This document shows, piece by piece, positions 36,598 through 45,149 of a stretch of 64,000 nt of DNA. The stretch comes from Chromohalobacter nigrandesensis (GTDB lineage: Bacteria; Pseudomonadota; Gammaproteobacteria; Pseudomonadales; Halomonadaceae): assembly GCF_023061285.1 (NCBI RefSeq), contig NZ_JAKGAM010000003.1:62001-126000 (forward strand). The letters are read 5' to 3'. Made by a program: the position numbers and the translations under genes. The notes below the pieces were generated by a model. That model made no database searches. It had not been told where the DNA came from and was given only the letters and a program-made list of their open reading frames with translations. How positions within the stretch are numbered: the first letter of the stretch is position 1; each line of letters begins with the position of its first letter.

Positions 36598-37512
36598 ATG
36601 AGCGGTGTCACTGGGGCCCTGGGCCCTCTGTTTTTGCTGATTCTACTCGGCGCCCTGCTGGGTTGGCGGCGTTTTCCCGGAGGGGATTTCTGGCCCGCGA
36701 TGGAACGGCTGATCTACTTTCTGCTGTTCCCCGCGATGCTGATCTCGACCCTATCCACGGCGGATGTCGCACAGGTGCCGGTCATTCGCCTGGCCGTGGT
36801 ACTGATGGGCACCATGACGCTATTCGCGCTGGGCCTCTGGTGTGCGCGTCATCGCCTCGCGCTGGCGCCGCCGGCGTTCACCTCGGTGCTGCAAGGCACG
36901 CTGCGCTTCAATACCTACGTAGGGGTCGCCGGTGCCGCCGCCCTGCATGGCCATGCAGGCGCCACGGTAGCGGCGGTCGCCGTGGCACTGATGGTGCCGC
37001 TGGCCAACGTGCTCTGCGTGAGCGGTTTCATCGCTGCAGGCACCTTGGGCCCCTCGAGCCTGGGGCGCAGTTTTGCCGCCTTGCTGCGTAATCCACTGAT
37101 CCTGGCCTGCGTCATCGGTATCGCCCTCAATGTCACCGGCATCGGCCTGCCGGGCTGGCTGGGCAGCGGCGTCGAGCTCGTCGGGCGTGCCGCCCTGCCG
37201 CTAGGACTGATCGCCGTGGGCGTGGCGCTACGCCCACACGCCCTCATCGGCAGCGGGCGCGCGTTCTGGTACTCGGCCACGCTCAAGCTCGTCGCCACGC
37301 CCGTAGTGGTACTGGCTCTGGCCTGGTTGACCGGACTCGATCCAGTGAGCCGCGACATCGCACTGCTGTTCGCCGCTCTGCCCACCGCCACCTCGGCCTA
37401 TATTCTCGCCCGCCAGCTCGGCGGCGACGCCGAGCTGATGGCGGCACTGATCACCGGCCAGACCCTGCTGGCCATGGTGACGCTACCGGCGTGGATGGCG
37501 CTGGCGAGCTGA
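36598..37512 (+). CDS. AEC family transporter (auxin-efflux-carrier-like permease)
   Basis: Inner-membrane secondary transporter of 304 residues with about ten helices in two inverted halves. The N-terminal LFLLILLGALLGWRRFPG and FWPAMERLIYFLLFPAMLIS are typical, as is the repeat half beginning LGRSFAALLRNPLILACVIG near residue 155. The C-terminal FAALPTATSAYILARQLGGD near 259 is the best-conserved family motif. Bacterial members move malonate, malate and other small organic acids; the substrate here is unknown. It converges on ldhA with only 3 bp between the stops and no terminator visible. Confidence 0.88.
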   Translation: MSGVTGALGPLFLLILLGALLGWRRFPGGDFWPAMERLIYFLLFPAMLISTLSTADVAQVPVIRLAVVLMGTMTLFALGLWCARHRLALAPPAFTSVLQGTLRFNTYVGVAGAAALHGHAGATVAAVAVALMVPLANVLCVSGFIAAGTLGPSSLGRSFAALLRNPLILACVIGIALNVTGIGLPGWLGSGVELVGRAALPLGLIAVGVALRPHALIGSGRAFWYSATLKLVATPVVVLALAWLTGLDPVSRDIALLFAALPTATSAYILARQLGGDAELMAALITGQTLLAMVTLPAWMALAS

Positions 37513-37515
37513 CAC

Positions 37516-38511
37516 TCAATCGCCGACCCGATTGGCGCAGGGCGCACCGCGCATCAAGCACGCCACGTTTTCGAGCGTGACCTCGGCTATTTCGGTCAAC
37601 GCCTCCTGCGTGAAGAAGCCCTGATGACCGGTGATCAACACATTGGGGAACGTCACCAGCCGCTGGAAGACATCGTCATCGATGATGTCGCTGGAATGAT
37701 CGCGGAAGAACAGTGACGTCTCCTGTTCGTAGACGTCGATGGCCAGACCGCCCAATCGCCGTGCCTTGAGAGACTCGATGACCGCGCGGGTGTCAATCAG
37801 TCCCCCGCGCGAGGTATTGATCAGCATCGCACCCGGCTTCATCGCCGCCAGGGCCTCGGCATCGATCAGATAGCGTGTGTCGTCCGTCAGCGGGCAATGC
37901 AGGCTTATGACGTCGCTCTCCGCCAGCAGGCGCTCACGTGACACATACTCGCCGCCCAGTGCGGTGAAATCATCGCTGGGGTAGCGATCTTCCCCCAGCA
38001 TACGACAGCCGAAGCCGTGAAAGATCCGCGCCGTGGCAAGGCCGATGCGACCGGTACCGATCACGCCCACCGTCTTGCCATGCAGCGTCATGCCCAACAA
38101 GCCCTCGAGCATGAAATTGCCCTCGCGCACGCGGTTGTAGGCGCGATGCGTGCGCCGGTTCAGCGTCAACAAAAGCGCCAGGGCATGCTCGGCCACCGCC
38201 TCCGGCGAGTATGCCGGCACGCGCACCACGGCCAGCCCCAGGCGCTTGGCGGCAGCGATATCGACATTGTTGAACCCCGCACAACGCATGGCCACGAAAC
38301 GCACTCCCTGTGCGCTCAGGGCCTCCAGCGTAGCGGCATCCAACGTGTCATTGACGAAGGCGCACACCCCATCGGCGCCGTGGGCCAACACAGCACTCTC
38401 CGCGCTGAGTGCCACCTCGTGATAGCCGATCTGGAACCCATGGCGCGCATTCGCGATCTCGAAGAAACGGTGGTCATACGGCTGGGCGCTGAACATGGCG
38501 ATAAGTGGCAC
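37516..38511 (-). CDS. ldhA: D-lactate dehydrogenase (2-hydroxyacid dehydrogenase family)
   Basis: NAD-dependent enzyme that reduces pyruvate to D-lactate. A GTG start at 38511 is chosen: GGGGAGG stands six bases before it, and the protein then begins MPLIAMFSAQPYDHRFFE, aligned with E. coli LdhA. There are 331 residues against 329 in E. coli. The NAD loop is GVIGTGRIG near residue 150; catalytic Arg is in NTSRGGLID near 231, Glu in DVYEQE near 259 and His in ITGHQGFFT near 294. Upstream lies a Fur-like box pair that also serves a divergent small RNA candidate, so iron control of ldhA is possible. Confidence 0.92.
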   Translation of the reverse strand: MPLIAMFSAQPYDHRFFEIANARHGFQIGYHEVALSAESAVLAHGADGVCAFVNDTLDAATLEALSAQGVRFVAMRCAGFNNVDIAAAKRLGLAVVRVPAYSPEAVAEHALALLLTLNRRTHRAYNRVREGNFMLEGLLGMTLHGKTVGVIGTGRIGLATARIFHGFGCRMLGEDRYPSDDFTALGGEYVSRERLLAESDVISLHCPLTDDTRYLIDAEALAAMKPGAMLINTSRGGLIDTRAVIESLKARRLGGLAIDVYEQETSLFFRDHSSDIIDDDVFQRLVTFPNVLITGHQGFFTQEALTEIAEVTLENVACLMRGAPCANRVGD

Positions 38512-38537
38512 CTGATGCCTCCCCTTGCACACTAATT

Positions 38538-38587
38538 GAAAAATATTCTCGTTACGCTTGACGACTCAAATGAGAATGGTTTACCTT
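38538..38587 (+). promoter_or_regulatory. Promoter with two Fur-like boxes
   Basis: TTGACG (38558-38563, five of six to the -35 consensus), 18 bp, then TACCTT (38582-38587) as -10. Two 19-base windows resemble the Fur box GATAATGATAATCATTATC: 38538-38556 on the minus strand (12 of 19) and 38566-38584 on the plus strand (11 of 19). The second overlaps spacer and -10. Their cores ATTCTCGTT and AATGAGAAT form an inverted pair around the -35. Confidence 0.6.
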
Positions 38588-38593
38588 AACAAC

Positions 38594-38708
38594 CGTGGCG
38601 CCGCCAAGCGCCACTGACCTAAGCAGCGAATGTCAGGTTCCTGCCCATGGTTATCTCCTCATCAAGCTAGTCACGGTCTTTAAGCCGCCCACCCGGGCGG
38701 CTTTTTTT
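38594..38708 (+). ncRNA. Candidate Fur-repressed small RNA (RyhB/PrrF-like layout)
   Basis: About 115 nt between a Fur-boxed promoter and a strong intrinsic terminator, with no coding potential. The 5' end forms GTGGCGC-N6-GCGCCAC (38595-38614). The middle, including CTGAC/GTCAG arms (38614-38618 and 38632-38636), leaves a pyrimidine-rich stretch TTATCTCCTCATC (38651-38663) unpaired. TCTCCTCA there is complementary to Shine-Dalgarno-like TGAGGAGA, as in trans-acting repressor RNAs. The terminator hairpin forms the 3' end. Size, order of elements and Fur boxes match RyhB and PrrF; sequence homology was not tested. Ends are estimates. Confidence 0.6.
38684..38708 (+). terminator. Strong intrinsic terminator of the small RNA
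   Basis: GCCGCCC (38684-38690), loop ACCC, GGGCGGC (38695-38701) and seven Ts (38702-38708). No protein-coding gene on the plus strand ends nearby (the last plus-strand gene stops at 37512), so it belongs to the short transcript starting near 38594. Confidence 0.9.
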
Positions 38709-38804
38709 ATGCCGCGCATCCGGCCAAGCCGCCAAGAAATCCCGAGAGGCGGCACTTTGCCAGCGTCTCGTTCGTCGTGTCGTGATTCAGATCAGCCACA
38801 ATCG

Positions 38805-38831
38805 AAAAAAACCGCTGCAAGCAGCGGTTTT
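38805..38831 (-). terminator. Intrinsic terminator of trmB
   Basis: AAAACCGCTG/CAGCGGTTTT arms (38808-38831) with a 4-base loop; on the minus strand the stem is followed by seven Ts. It lies 45 bp after the trmB stop and could also work on the plus strand. The stretch between it and the small RNA terminator (38709-38804) shows nothing recognisable. Confidence 0.88.
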
Positions 38832-38875
38832 CGAAGGACTCAGCGTTACGTGTAAGCGATGCGTGCAGCGTGCGC

Positions 38876-39625
38876 TTATCCGTCCTCACGGGCATAGATC
38901 AGGTCCCAGACCCCATGGCCGAGCTTTTCGCCACGGCTTTCGAACTTGGTCAGCGGACGGAATTCCGGGCGCGGCACGTAGGGGGCGCTCTCGGCCGACG
39001 CCGTATTGCGATAACCCGGCGCCGCCTCCATGACCTCGACCATATGCTCGGCGTAGGCTTCCCAGTCGGTCGCCATGTGCAGATACCCGCCAGGCGCCAG
39101 ACGCGTACGCACCTGTTCGACGAAGGCCGGCTGCACGATGCGCCGCTTGTGGTGCTTTTTCTTCGGCCAGGGGTCGGGGAAGAACAGCTGCAACCCCGTC
39201 AGGCTGGCCTCGGGCAGGCACTTATCGAGCACTTCCAAGGCATCTTCGCGGTACACCCGCAGGTTGGTCAGGCCGCGTTTATCGGCCTCGTCGAGCAACT
39301 TGCCGACGCCCGGCGCATGCACCTCGATGCCGATGAAGTCGGTCTCGGGGTGCGTGCTCGCCTGCTCGATCAGCGATTGGCCCATGCCAAAGCCGATTTC
39401 CACGACGCAAGGAGCGCGGCGACCAAACAGCACCTCCAGCGACTGACGGCCATCGGCCACGCTCAGCCCCAGACGCGGCCAGACCTCCTCGAGCCCCCGC
39501 GACTGGGCAACGGTCATGCGCCCGGCGCGCAGCACGTAGCTCTTGATGCCGCGCGGTGGGCGTGTGGATGACGCCGAGCCCGCCTCAGGGGCGTTCTCGG
39601 GGGAAGACGATGGTGAATCACTCAT
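38876..39625 (-). CDS. trmB: tRNA (guanine-N7-)-methyltransferase
   Basis: SAM-dependent enzyme that makes m7G46 in tRNA. Started at [16 protein letters not shown], giving 249 residues with a disordered N-terminal stretch of about 40. The core has [15 protein letters not shown] near residue 81 (SAM loop), [19 protein letters not shown] near 103, and [20 protein letters not shown] near 151, the family signature with [13 protein letters not shown]. The C-terminal [17 protein letters not shown] is also conserved. It follows thiG by 58 bp on the same strand and ends at a strong terminator. Confidence 0.95.
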
Positions 39626-39683
39626 GGGCAAGTCTGCGTTGTCGATCACATGGCGAAGGCGGTCGCACGGACCGCGCAAGAAT

Positions 39684-40484
39684 TCAGGCGTTGATGCGCC
39701 CGGCGAAGGGCGAGGACGGATTGGCCGATGCCCGGCGTGGCATTCGTTCGGCGAGGTATGCCTCGCGTCCCGCCTCCACCGCCAGCTTCATGGCATGCGC
39801 CATACGTACCGGCTGCCGAGCGTGGGCGATAGCCGAATTGATCAGCACGCCGGCGCAGCCCATCTCCATGGCCAGCGCAGCGTCCGAGGGCGTACCGATC
39901 CCGGCATCGACCAGAATCGGCACTTCGGCATGCTCGAGAATGATCTCGAGCGTTGCCGGGTTGAGCAGGCCATGCCCCGAGCCAATCAAGGAGCCCAGCG
40001 GCATCACCGCGCAACAGCCGATGCGCTCGAGTTCCTTGGCGACGATAGGGTCATCGCTGGTGTAGACCATGACATCGAAACCGTCGTTGACCAGCGTCTC
40101 GGCGGCCTTGAGCGTCTCGACCACATTGGGGTAGAGCGTGCCGTCGTCGCCCAGCACCTCGAGCTTGACCAGGTTGTGCCCGTCGAGCAGCTCGCGGGCC
40201 AGCTTGCAGGTCCGCACCGCGTCCTTGGCGGTATAACAGCCCGCCGTGTTGGGCAGAATCGTGTAACGGCTCGTCGGCAAGGCGTCGAGCAGATTGGGCT
40301 CATCGGGATTCTGCCCCAGGTTGGTGCGACGCACCGCCACGGTAACGAGCTCGGTGCCACTCGCCTCGACGGCGGCGGCGGTCTCGTCGAAGTCACGGTA
40401 CTTGCCGGTGCCCACCAGCAGGCGTGACGAGAAGACGCGACCGGCGACGGTCAGTGGGATGTCCTGGCGCTGATCAGCGGACAT
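39684..40484 (-). CDS. thiG: Thiazole synthase
   Basis: Makes the thiazole phosphate of thiamine from deoxyxylulose phosphate, dehydroglycine and the ThiS thiocarboxylate. The 266 residues form a TIM barrel. [14 protein letters not shown] near residue 19 is the family start, and the Schiff-base lysine is in [10 protein letters not shown] near 102. [20 protein letters not shown] near 154 and [20 protein letters not shown] near 186 are the conserved phosphate loops. AGGAGG precedes the ATG. thiS is directly upstream (81-bp gap with an imperfect hairpin at 40512-40553), so donor and acceptor are co-transcribed. Confidence 0.96.
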
Positions 40485-43916: not shown

Positions 43917-45149
43917 GTGAAAACTTGCAATAACCACATTTCCTACAAGGCCCGCATCCTGCTGATCTTCACCCCCTTCATGCTGGCTTACCTGATCTCG
44001 GAACTCTATCGCAATGTCAATGGCGTGATCGCACCGGCGCTACGCCAAAGTCTCAACATCGGCCCCGAGCAGTTGGGGCTGCTCTCGAGCGTCTTCCTAC
44101 TGGCTCTGGCGTTGGTACAAATTCCGGTAGGCCTGCTGCTAGATCGTTTCGGCTCCCGCCGAGTAGTCCCATCCTTCATGATCGTGGCGGCACTGGGCGC
44201 TTGGCTGTTTACCCTTCCGAGCTACAAGGCCGCCTTGGGCGGCCGTCTACTAATTGGGCTAGGGTTGGGCGCCTGCTGGGCAGGAGCCTATCGAGCTAAT
44301 GTACTATGGTGGCCCGCCGAGCGACTGGCTCTGGCCAATGGCGTCCTACTGGGTCTATCGGGGTTGGGCGCACTAATGGCCACTCTACCCACCGAAATGC
44401 TGCTGCAGTCGCTCCGTTGGCAGACACTTTTTCACGGGCTTGCCACTATTACACTGCTACTGGCACTGCTGATCTGGCTATTGGTGCCGACACATCCCGC
44501 CGAGCATGAGATCAGCGGCTCTTCACTTGGAGGACTACTATCCGTAGTACGCCATCCCCTGTTTATGCGCATTTGGCCCATGACGCTAATGTGCGAGGGT
44601 AGCTGGCTGGCTTGGCAAGGACTCTGGGCAGGTGGCTGGATGCGTGAGGTCGCTGGGCTGAGCGGGCATACCACGGCGTTCTATCTGCTGGGGTTGGCGG
44701 CAGCCATTGTACTCGGCCAGCTGTTAATCAGCGTAATTACCGACAGGCTGATTCAGCGTGGCGTACCGCTGATCCGATTGATGAGAATAATGCTTATTGG
44801 TTTCGTGGCAGTGCAGGGAATGATCATCTGGCTACCGCTGCCAGGCATTAGCCTGCTATGGATCGCCTTCGGCTTACTCACCGTCGGTCCAATTCTCGCC
44901 TATGCCTGGCTGGCATCCGAATTGCCGTCGCGCCTATCTGGGCGGCTGATAAGCCTGCTCAATATGGCCGCGACCTTGGGAGGCTTCATCCTCCAGTATG
45001 CCGTGGGCTGGATGATCGAACTCTGGCCGCAGACAAACGGCCATTATCCGGACGCCGCCTGGCGCTGGACCCTTTCGCTGATGATCGGGCTGCAGATGCT
45101 GGCCGTGGCGCGCCTATGGCGCCTACCGCACTGGCATACAGACTCTTAG
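43917..45149 (+). CDS. MFS transporter, substrate unknown
   Basis: Twelve-helix major-facilitator permease. I start at GTG 43917 (MKTCNNHISYKARILLIFTP, 410 residues), because the first helix begins soon after; no strong ribosome site confirms it. The A-motif loop is seen as GLLLDRFGSRRVVPSF near residue 77, and RLLIGLGLGACWAGAYRAN near 109 follows. The C-terminal half starts near 206 after a hydrophilic loop. It is divergent from a LysR gene. Frequent CTA and TTA codons and lower GC set the pair apart from neighbours and suggest acquisition by transfer. Confidence 0.85.
   Translation: MKTCNNHISYKARILLIFTPFMLAYLISELYRNVNGVIAPALRQSLNIGPEQLGLLSSVFLLALALVQIPVGLLLDRFGSRRVVPSFMIVAALGAWLFTLPSYKAALGGRLLIGLGLGACWAGAYRANVLWWPAERLALANGVLLGLSGLGALMATLPTEMLLQSLRWQTLFHGLATITLLLALLIWLLVPTHPAEHEISGSSLGGLLSVVRHPLFMRIWPMTLMCEGSWLAWQGLWAGGWMREVAGLSGHTTAFYLLGLAAAIVLGQLLISVITDRLIQRGVPLIRLMRIMLIGFVAVQGMIIWLPLPGISLLWIAFGLLTVGPILAYAWLASELPSRLSGRLISLLNMAATLGGFILQYAVGWMIELWPQTNGHYPDAAWRWTLSLMIGLQMLAVARLWRLPHWHTDS

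Follow-up and report, generated by a model that had tools for sequence, protein, structure and literature searches.

The window, that is, the whole 64-kb stretch of Chromohalobacter DNA that was analysed, carries a real and conserved PrrF-type small RNA that falls below the Rfam threshold and adds a new branch to an established class of RNA. Its locus (window positions 38558-38708, +) lies between an ldhA-like gene and trmB, and comprises a promoter with Fur-like boxes, followed by a hairpin, a core rich in pyrimidines and a terminator (Table 1). We consider it very probable that this is a single-copy, diverged PrrF homologue that is repressed by Fur and that acts with Hfq to spare iron through sdhC and, probably, sodB.

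Table 1. Features of the small RNA locus and its flanking genes (window positions)
Feature	Position	Strand	Details
2-hydroxyacid dehydrogenase gene, ldhA-like	37516..38532	-	Upstream neighbour
Upstream Fur-like box	38538..38556	.	12/19; AT-rich, AAAAATATTCTCGTT
Promoter	38558..38587	+	-35 TTGACG at 38558-38563, 18-nt spacer, -10 TACCTT at 38582-38587; read from sequence
Fur-like box(es) in spacer and -10	38566..38590	.	AAATGAGAATGGTT; 11/19 at 38566-38584, 13/19 at 38572-38590
PrrF-type small RNA	38593..38708	+	About 116 nt; start inferred from model and promoter spacing
5' hairpin	38595..38614	+	7 pairs (8 in the consensus of the family)
Targeting core	38654..38678	+	TCTCCTCATCAAGCTAGTCACGGTC; 25 nt, one variable base (G or A)
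11-mer within the core	38666..38676	+	GCTAGTCACGG; complementary to the region of the sdhC start codon
Rho-independent terminator and T run	38682..38708	+	38682-38703 plus the T run
trmB	38876..39679	-	Conserved downstream neighbour

Homology to PrrF

The Rfam model of PrrF (RF00444) matched the locus end to end, from the TTGAC element and the Fur region through the terminator (positions 38558-38711, model positions 1-150; 60.1 bits, E = 7.1e-10). This score lies below the RF00444 gathering score of 90 bits, the whole window contained no match at or above the gathering score of any Rfam family, and RyhB was not among the 13 matches that Rfam gave at this stretch with an E-value of 10 or less. 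Of the two known RNAs to which the original prediction had likened the locus, it was therefore PrrF that was matched, below its cut-off, and not RyhB. A second model, R1, was built from 38 diverse Halomonadaceae sequences and none from other families, and it landed on curated PrrF loci that score 127-163 bits in RF00444: among 20 loci scanned with Rfam, nineteen of them supplied by R1, 10 were PrrF at these scores and the other 10 lay below the cut-off. Because RF00444 finds the window and R1 finds curated PrrF loci, the homology is reciprocal, and these profile comparisons make it close to certain that the Halomonadaceae RNA is a homologue of PrrF. The 90-bit value is a curator's threshold that limits the RF00444 label and not the homology; since it was tested and not reached, we do not call the RNA a member of RF00444 as curated. 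The original prediction had left the choice between a new family and a diverged PrrF. The former does not hold, given homology to PrrF by reciprocal matches, and the latter is borne out by those matches together with the same order of parts, compensatory pairs and conserved Fur-type promoters.

Promoter and Fur-like boxes

The TTGACG-N18-TACCTT promoter can be read directly from the sequence, as had been reported, and is supported by aligned relatives, in which the TTGAC element is matched. A simple promoter scanner returned no sites and did not call it, so the assignment rests on the comparison with relatives. Fur-like boxes were scored against a 19-nt consensus that we take to be GATAATGATAATCATTATC. 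They do flank and overlap the promoter, with scores of 11/19 to 13/19 that are weak singly and above chance across the family; a further match (11/19) lies at 38532-38550. As 34 positions in the 64-kb window reach at least 12/19, we rejected the consensus score alone as proof of a Fur box, and the window's own boxes, taken alone, appear mediocre and ordinary. Among 91 distinct 90-nt promoter segments of core-bearing relatives, the best Fur-like box averaged 13.5/19 and scored at least 12/19 in 90, compared with a mean of 9.1/19 for 741 control segments from the same loci, only 29 of which reached 12. Judged from these sequences, the boxes are not a product of chance across the family and mark a conserved Fur-type promoter.

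In most promoters a box sits between the -35 and the -10 (76/91 by pattern sort), and in relatives this spacer box reads AAATGAGAATGATTATC. The 76 promoters were picked by a pattern that covers part of the -35 and the spacer box, whereas the segments behind the mean scores of 13.5 and 9.1 were not so picked; the columns of the upstream Fur-like box, which are conserved across the 76 distinct family promoters, lie outside this pattern. Several copies have a near-perfect Fur-like palindrome upstream of the -35 instead of one in the spacer (L044, L048, L058, L073, L085 and L090), as if the site had moved and the control had been kept. The genome encodes Hfq and two Fur-family proteins. Elsewhere in the window, overlapping Fur-like matches, two of them at 13/19, cluster at 44777-44804 (GATGAGAATAATGCTTATTGGTTTC).

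Extent and structure of the RNA

The R1 model matched the RNA over its full length (model positions 1-118 of 118) at 117 bits, the window sequence being itself among the 38 from which R1 was built. By this model the RNA measures 116 nt, in keeping with the length of about 115 nt first proposed, and the R1 search found one copy in the window's genome. For alignment A1, 124 core-bearing items were reduced to 43 once near-duplicates had been removed, and then to 38 sequences by dropping five by hand (L025:1258-1395, L025:1867-1998, L026:1150-1277, L066 and L085), with some starts hand-trimmed. On A1, RNAalifold predicted two helices with 15 pairs in total, and every pair shows double compensatory changes (8/8 consensus pairs of the 5' hairpin and 7/7 of the terminator). 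The covariation score was 0.536, higher than in any of 500 shuffles (0.271, sd 0.016), and dropped to 0.065-0.199 when partners were slid by 1 to 3 columns. Across families, the corresponding figures were 14/15 pairs and a covariation score of 0.769, in an alignment fitted to the model. The 5' hairpin of the original prediction is real, being kept by compensatory changes, and the covariation across the Halomonadaceae that had been put forward as a check was found at every pair of the hairpin and terminator. A middle stem between the 5' hairpin and the core is absent from the RNAalifold consensus and has several broken pairs in the Rfam alignment.

In stability, the predicted fold exceeds 200 shuffled versions of its sequence (z = -4.2). 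The pyrimidine stretch described earlier is present, although its description as unpaired holds only in part, since the predicted fold leaves the core partly unpaired only. The terminator was said to be needed by no other gene, and this is the case: no + strand gene ends close before it, the AEC transporter gene ending at 37512 and both ldhA and trmB lying on the - strand. Its stem, with 9 pairs, is the longest among three terminator-like sites in 37500-39800, but the count of three says little because shuffles give 1.4 such sites (sd 1.2). A separate terminator-like hairpin is found downstream of trmB, on the trmB strand (38825-38811, -).

Distribution and genomic context

A DNA search found the RNA in 10/10 genomes of the genus, a count that includes the genome of the window. 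RF00444 matched 167/275 family genomes at E of 0.01 or better, in 23/24 genera, with 0/275 over the gathering cut-off and 0/14 control genomes matching. R1, the E-values of which are rough and whose training sequences came in part from genomes that it goes on to detect, matched 266/275 family genomes (249/254 good ones), 56/390 genomes in a sample of the order (18 in Halomonadaceae and 38 in eight other families) and 4/369 in a sample of the class, all four of these being members of the order. Negatives from Infernal searches over 40 genomes, which were run with stricter filters, are not absolute. The conservation in relatives on which the original prediction had been staked is thus found throughout the genus and in nearly all of the family. 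An exact 23-mer was found in 70 stretches of genome contigs, one of which belongs to Gammaproteobacteria bacterium MFB021; the other 69 are, judging by their names, presumably from Halomonadaceae. Many relatives carry two or more copies in tandem. Tandem arrays (L288, L289, L290 and L025) include five copies spaced 277-301 nt apart in G523 (L288, G523:C3:1547583-1548837); G624, G374, G191 and G161 have three matches each and G239 has five.

The names ldhA and trmB follow the original prediction and what we presume these genes to be. Neighbours were compared at 70 named loci. Of those that could be tested, 43/53 have an AEC transporter gene no more than 1.5 kb upstream and 31/37 have trmB no more than 3.2 kb downstream; ldhA is directly upstream in 9/70 loci only. 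It is a variable neighbour, because five Chromohalobacter loci (L050, L070, L101, L105 and L106) have the AEC gene directly upstream and not ldhA. A role for ldhA was rejected on the strength of the 9/70 count: its link to the RNA is incidental, and the synteny is AEC transporter, small RNA, trmB. At 10/70 loci, some of which have little flank, neither AEC nor trmB was in the usual place and direction; at two of these (L049 and L075) both genes are present in reverse orientation.

Targeting core and candidate targets

The PrrF-type core, UCUCCUCAUCA.GCUA.UCACGG, is present before the terminator. In its 25-nt family form, TCTCCTCATCAAGCTA[GA]TCACGGTC, it occurs in 30/30 best RF00444 loci of the family, which were not picked by the core and include some near-duplicates. 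The invariance of the core within A1 is by selection, because the pattern used to choose its items already prescribes most of the core.

The sdhC gene starts with CCGUGAAUAGC, in which GUG is the start codon, and this sequence pairs with GCUAGUCACGG of the RNA in 10/11 positions. A site with at most one mismatch was found in 29/37 genomes with the RNA versus 0/6 in which R1 had no hit (Fisher P = 5e-4, uncorrected for relatedness), a contrast that is confounded by phylogeny and by the MNSK coding constraint, which explains part of the conservation. The comparison used 43 of the 52 genomes with an sdhC start; of those counted as non-carriers, one (G134) is matched weakly by RF00444 (E = 0.001) and another (G276) is only 75% complete. 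Nine other Chromohalobacter genomes were omitted as near-duplicates, and all nine carry CCGTGAATAGC. Within the window, one site with at most one mismatch occurs in 127,980 positions, namely the RNA gene's own complement. In one genome (G014, L270) sdhC starts with CCGTGACTAGC, encoding VTSK and not VNSK, and all 11 bases complement the RNA core.

Duplex energies, which ignore target structure, were lowest for the start region of sodB (-31.4 kcal/mol), which did better than all 52 window gene starts and was matched by 0.8% of 3000 random window stretches. The value for sdhC was -28.8 kcal/mol (2.4% of random stretches), with one of the 52 gene starts doing as well, and those for the Mn-SOD gene (-25.7 kcal/mol) and acnB (-20.7 kcal/mol) were ordinary. 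As its pairing was not above background in the window's genome, acnB is not supported as a target here. In relatives, with the window's core used for all genomes, duplex z fell below -2 for sodB in 9/15, sdhC in 4/10, acnB in 4/8 and the Mn-SOD control in 1/8; sodB pairing is uneven, and its low-z genomes include G134, which has no R1 hit. Because long-window duplex energies are noisy, the case for sdhC rests on the short antisense site. Complementarity makes sdhC and sodB likely targets. In P. aeruginosa, sdhC is described as an experimentally validated PrrF target (PMC8534726) and acnB as a PrrF-dependent gene (PMC2851614), and sodB is described as belonging to the PrrF regulon (PMC13104616). 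The leader of the Chromohalobacter Mn-SOD gene has an AT-rich sequence, tgaaaactattattgttag (L152, ~1390-1500, gene strand), that could be a Fur box; this would fit a swap from Fe-SOD to Mn-SOD under low iron.

Proposed mode of action

We infer that the RNA is transcribed, repressed by Fur, dependent on Hfq and able to silence its targets. With enough iron, Fe-Fur would bind the boxes over the -35/-10 region and transcription would stop. At low iron, the RNA of about 116 nt would be made, ending at its own terminator, and with Hfq its 25-nt core would base-pair to mRNAs of iron-rich enzymes in their start regions. The first target would be sdhC of the succinate dehydrogenase operon, where GCUAGUCACGG would pair with CCGUGAAUAGC across the GUG start codon. 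Probably sodB, for the Fe superoxide dismutase, would be another, since pairing with CUCC of the core can occlude the ribosome-binding site. Pairing would block translation, and iron would be spared.

Alternative explanations

The locus could instead produce a short messenger for a small protein and not a base-pairing RNA. Open frames do pass through it, a GTG frame (38595-38855, 86 aa) and a 17-codon ATG frame, in view of which the original claim of no coding frame was too strong; what stands is that there is no conserved coding, because the ATGTCAGG start is missing in 35/89 distinct relatives and the frame from this start to the core is split 36/11/7 among the other 54. A coding frame was rejected on these counts and, with single-base indels before the core and helices maintained by pairing, a messenger is exceedingly improbable. 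Scarcely credible, too, is a cis element of the ldhA promoter region or the trmB 3' end without an RNA of its own. Fur-like boxes between the divergent ldhA and the RNA would suit such an element, but the unit stays although ldhA is so rarely directly upstream, it occurs as tandem copies in many genomes, and it is found at the ten loci without AEC or trmB in the usual place or direction (two being reversed and some having little flank); trmB, for its part, is on the other strand, and a separate terminator-like hairpin lies downstream of it on the - strand.

The resemblance to PrrF could also have arisen by convergence, as in RyhB, in a Fur-regulated small RNA of independent origin. The Rfam score under the cut-off is consistent with this, as are neighbours that differ from those we take to flank prrF in P. 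aeruginosa. Against it stand full-length reciprocal profile matches that keep promoter, Fur box, hairpin, core and terminator in the same register, intermediates of the same layout in other families of the order (f2, f7, f16, f35, f37 and f38) and the absence of RyhB from the Rfam matches, so that we hold convergence to be highly improbable. Even as a PrrF homologue, the RNA might have changed its regulation or targets and not spare iron, serving for example in salt or oxidative stress. The mediocre Fur boxes in the Chromohalobacter window, the lack of acnB pairing and the altered seed in two other clades (g7 and g23, see below) would fit a changed function, which the Fur-like boxes in 90/91 promoters and the retained sdhC and sodB complementarity nonetheless render improbable. 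The iron-sparing PrrF homologue is the reading that we prefer.

Comparison with known small RNAs

PrrF1 and PrrF2 are described as RNAs of 116 and 114 nt that are Fur-repressed and end in Rho-independent terminators (PMC2851614). The window's RNA is like the Pseudomonas pair (RF00444) in its Fur box between the -35 and -10, its length of about 115 nt, its 5' hairpin and terminator, its core motif, its tandem copies in some relatives and its likely targets sdhC and sodB. Unlike PrrF, it scores 60.1 bits against a cut-off of 90, its hairpin sequences are replaced, G takes the place of A inside the core, the Chromohalobacter genome has a single copy, and the neighbours are the AEC transporter gene and trmB. 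Two PrrF copies per genome are reported as usual in Pseudomonas (PMC4211561); two copies, whether in tandem or apart, are not seen in the window's genome and are not required of an RNA of the PrrF kind. ArrF of Azotobacter vinelandii, to which the RNA is likened by description, is an iron-repressed PrrF homologue that regulates sodB and FeSII (PMC2851614). RyhB of enterobacteria is iron-repressed (PMC4211561) and is described as working alike, by binding target mRNAs that then decay with Hfq and RNase E (PMC2851614), but it gave no match here, and PrrF and RyhB are reported not to be homologous in sequence (PMC4211561). NrrF (Neisseria), BrrF (Burkholderia) and IsrR (Staphylococcus) are, by their descriptions, analogous iron-sparing small RNAs.

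Implications for the Halomonadaceae

Halomonadaceae are models of salt adaptation and industrial hosts. In the open-licence literature searched, no native PrrF was found in Halomonas, Chromohalobacter or the Halomonadaceae, an absence that is no proof of novelty. Of the papers there that name both PrrF and Halomonas, none describes a native one: some, on Halomonas bluephagenesis, mention the PrrF1 scaffold of P. aeruginosa as a tool of foreign origin, and the others use the two names separately. A C. salexigens RNA-seq paper (PMC6104435) discusses iron, and a term search of it gave no hit for small RNA, sRNA or non-coding. The regulator is likely to be unannotated across the family because 0/275 genomes pass the Rfam PrrF cut-off. 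Most Halomonadaceae can be expected to have a native PrrF cousin whose core is related, and this could interfere with the PrrF1 scaffold or be put to use. For the PrrF field, the 266 non-Pseudomonas family genomes and the intermediates in other families amount to a deep alignment, and the sdhC start codon is a candidate conserved target.

In g7 and g23, two large Halomonadaceae clades, the 5' half of the core is rewritten to TCTCCC[CT]CTCATTG and CTAGTCACGG is retained, in 15/15 loci looked at, which were reached by models and not by the core pattern; the 3' half reads GCUA[AG]UCACGG. Tentatively, and with slightly more doubt than conviction, we read PrrF not as confined to Pseudomonas but as an old regulator of the order whose core has two parts, a 3' half locked on the sdhC start codon and a 5' half open to rewriting, and with the rest of the regulon changed in g7 and g23.

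The rewritten seed, TCTCCC[CT]CTCATTGCTAGTCACGG, was seen in L123, L124, L125, L129, L130 and L231-L245 of these clades. Their 5' hairpin loop, TTGATGAGA, could pair with this seed and may thereby bring loop and core into contact.
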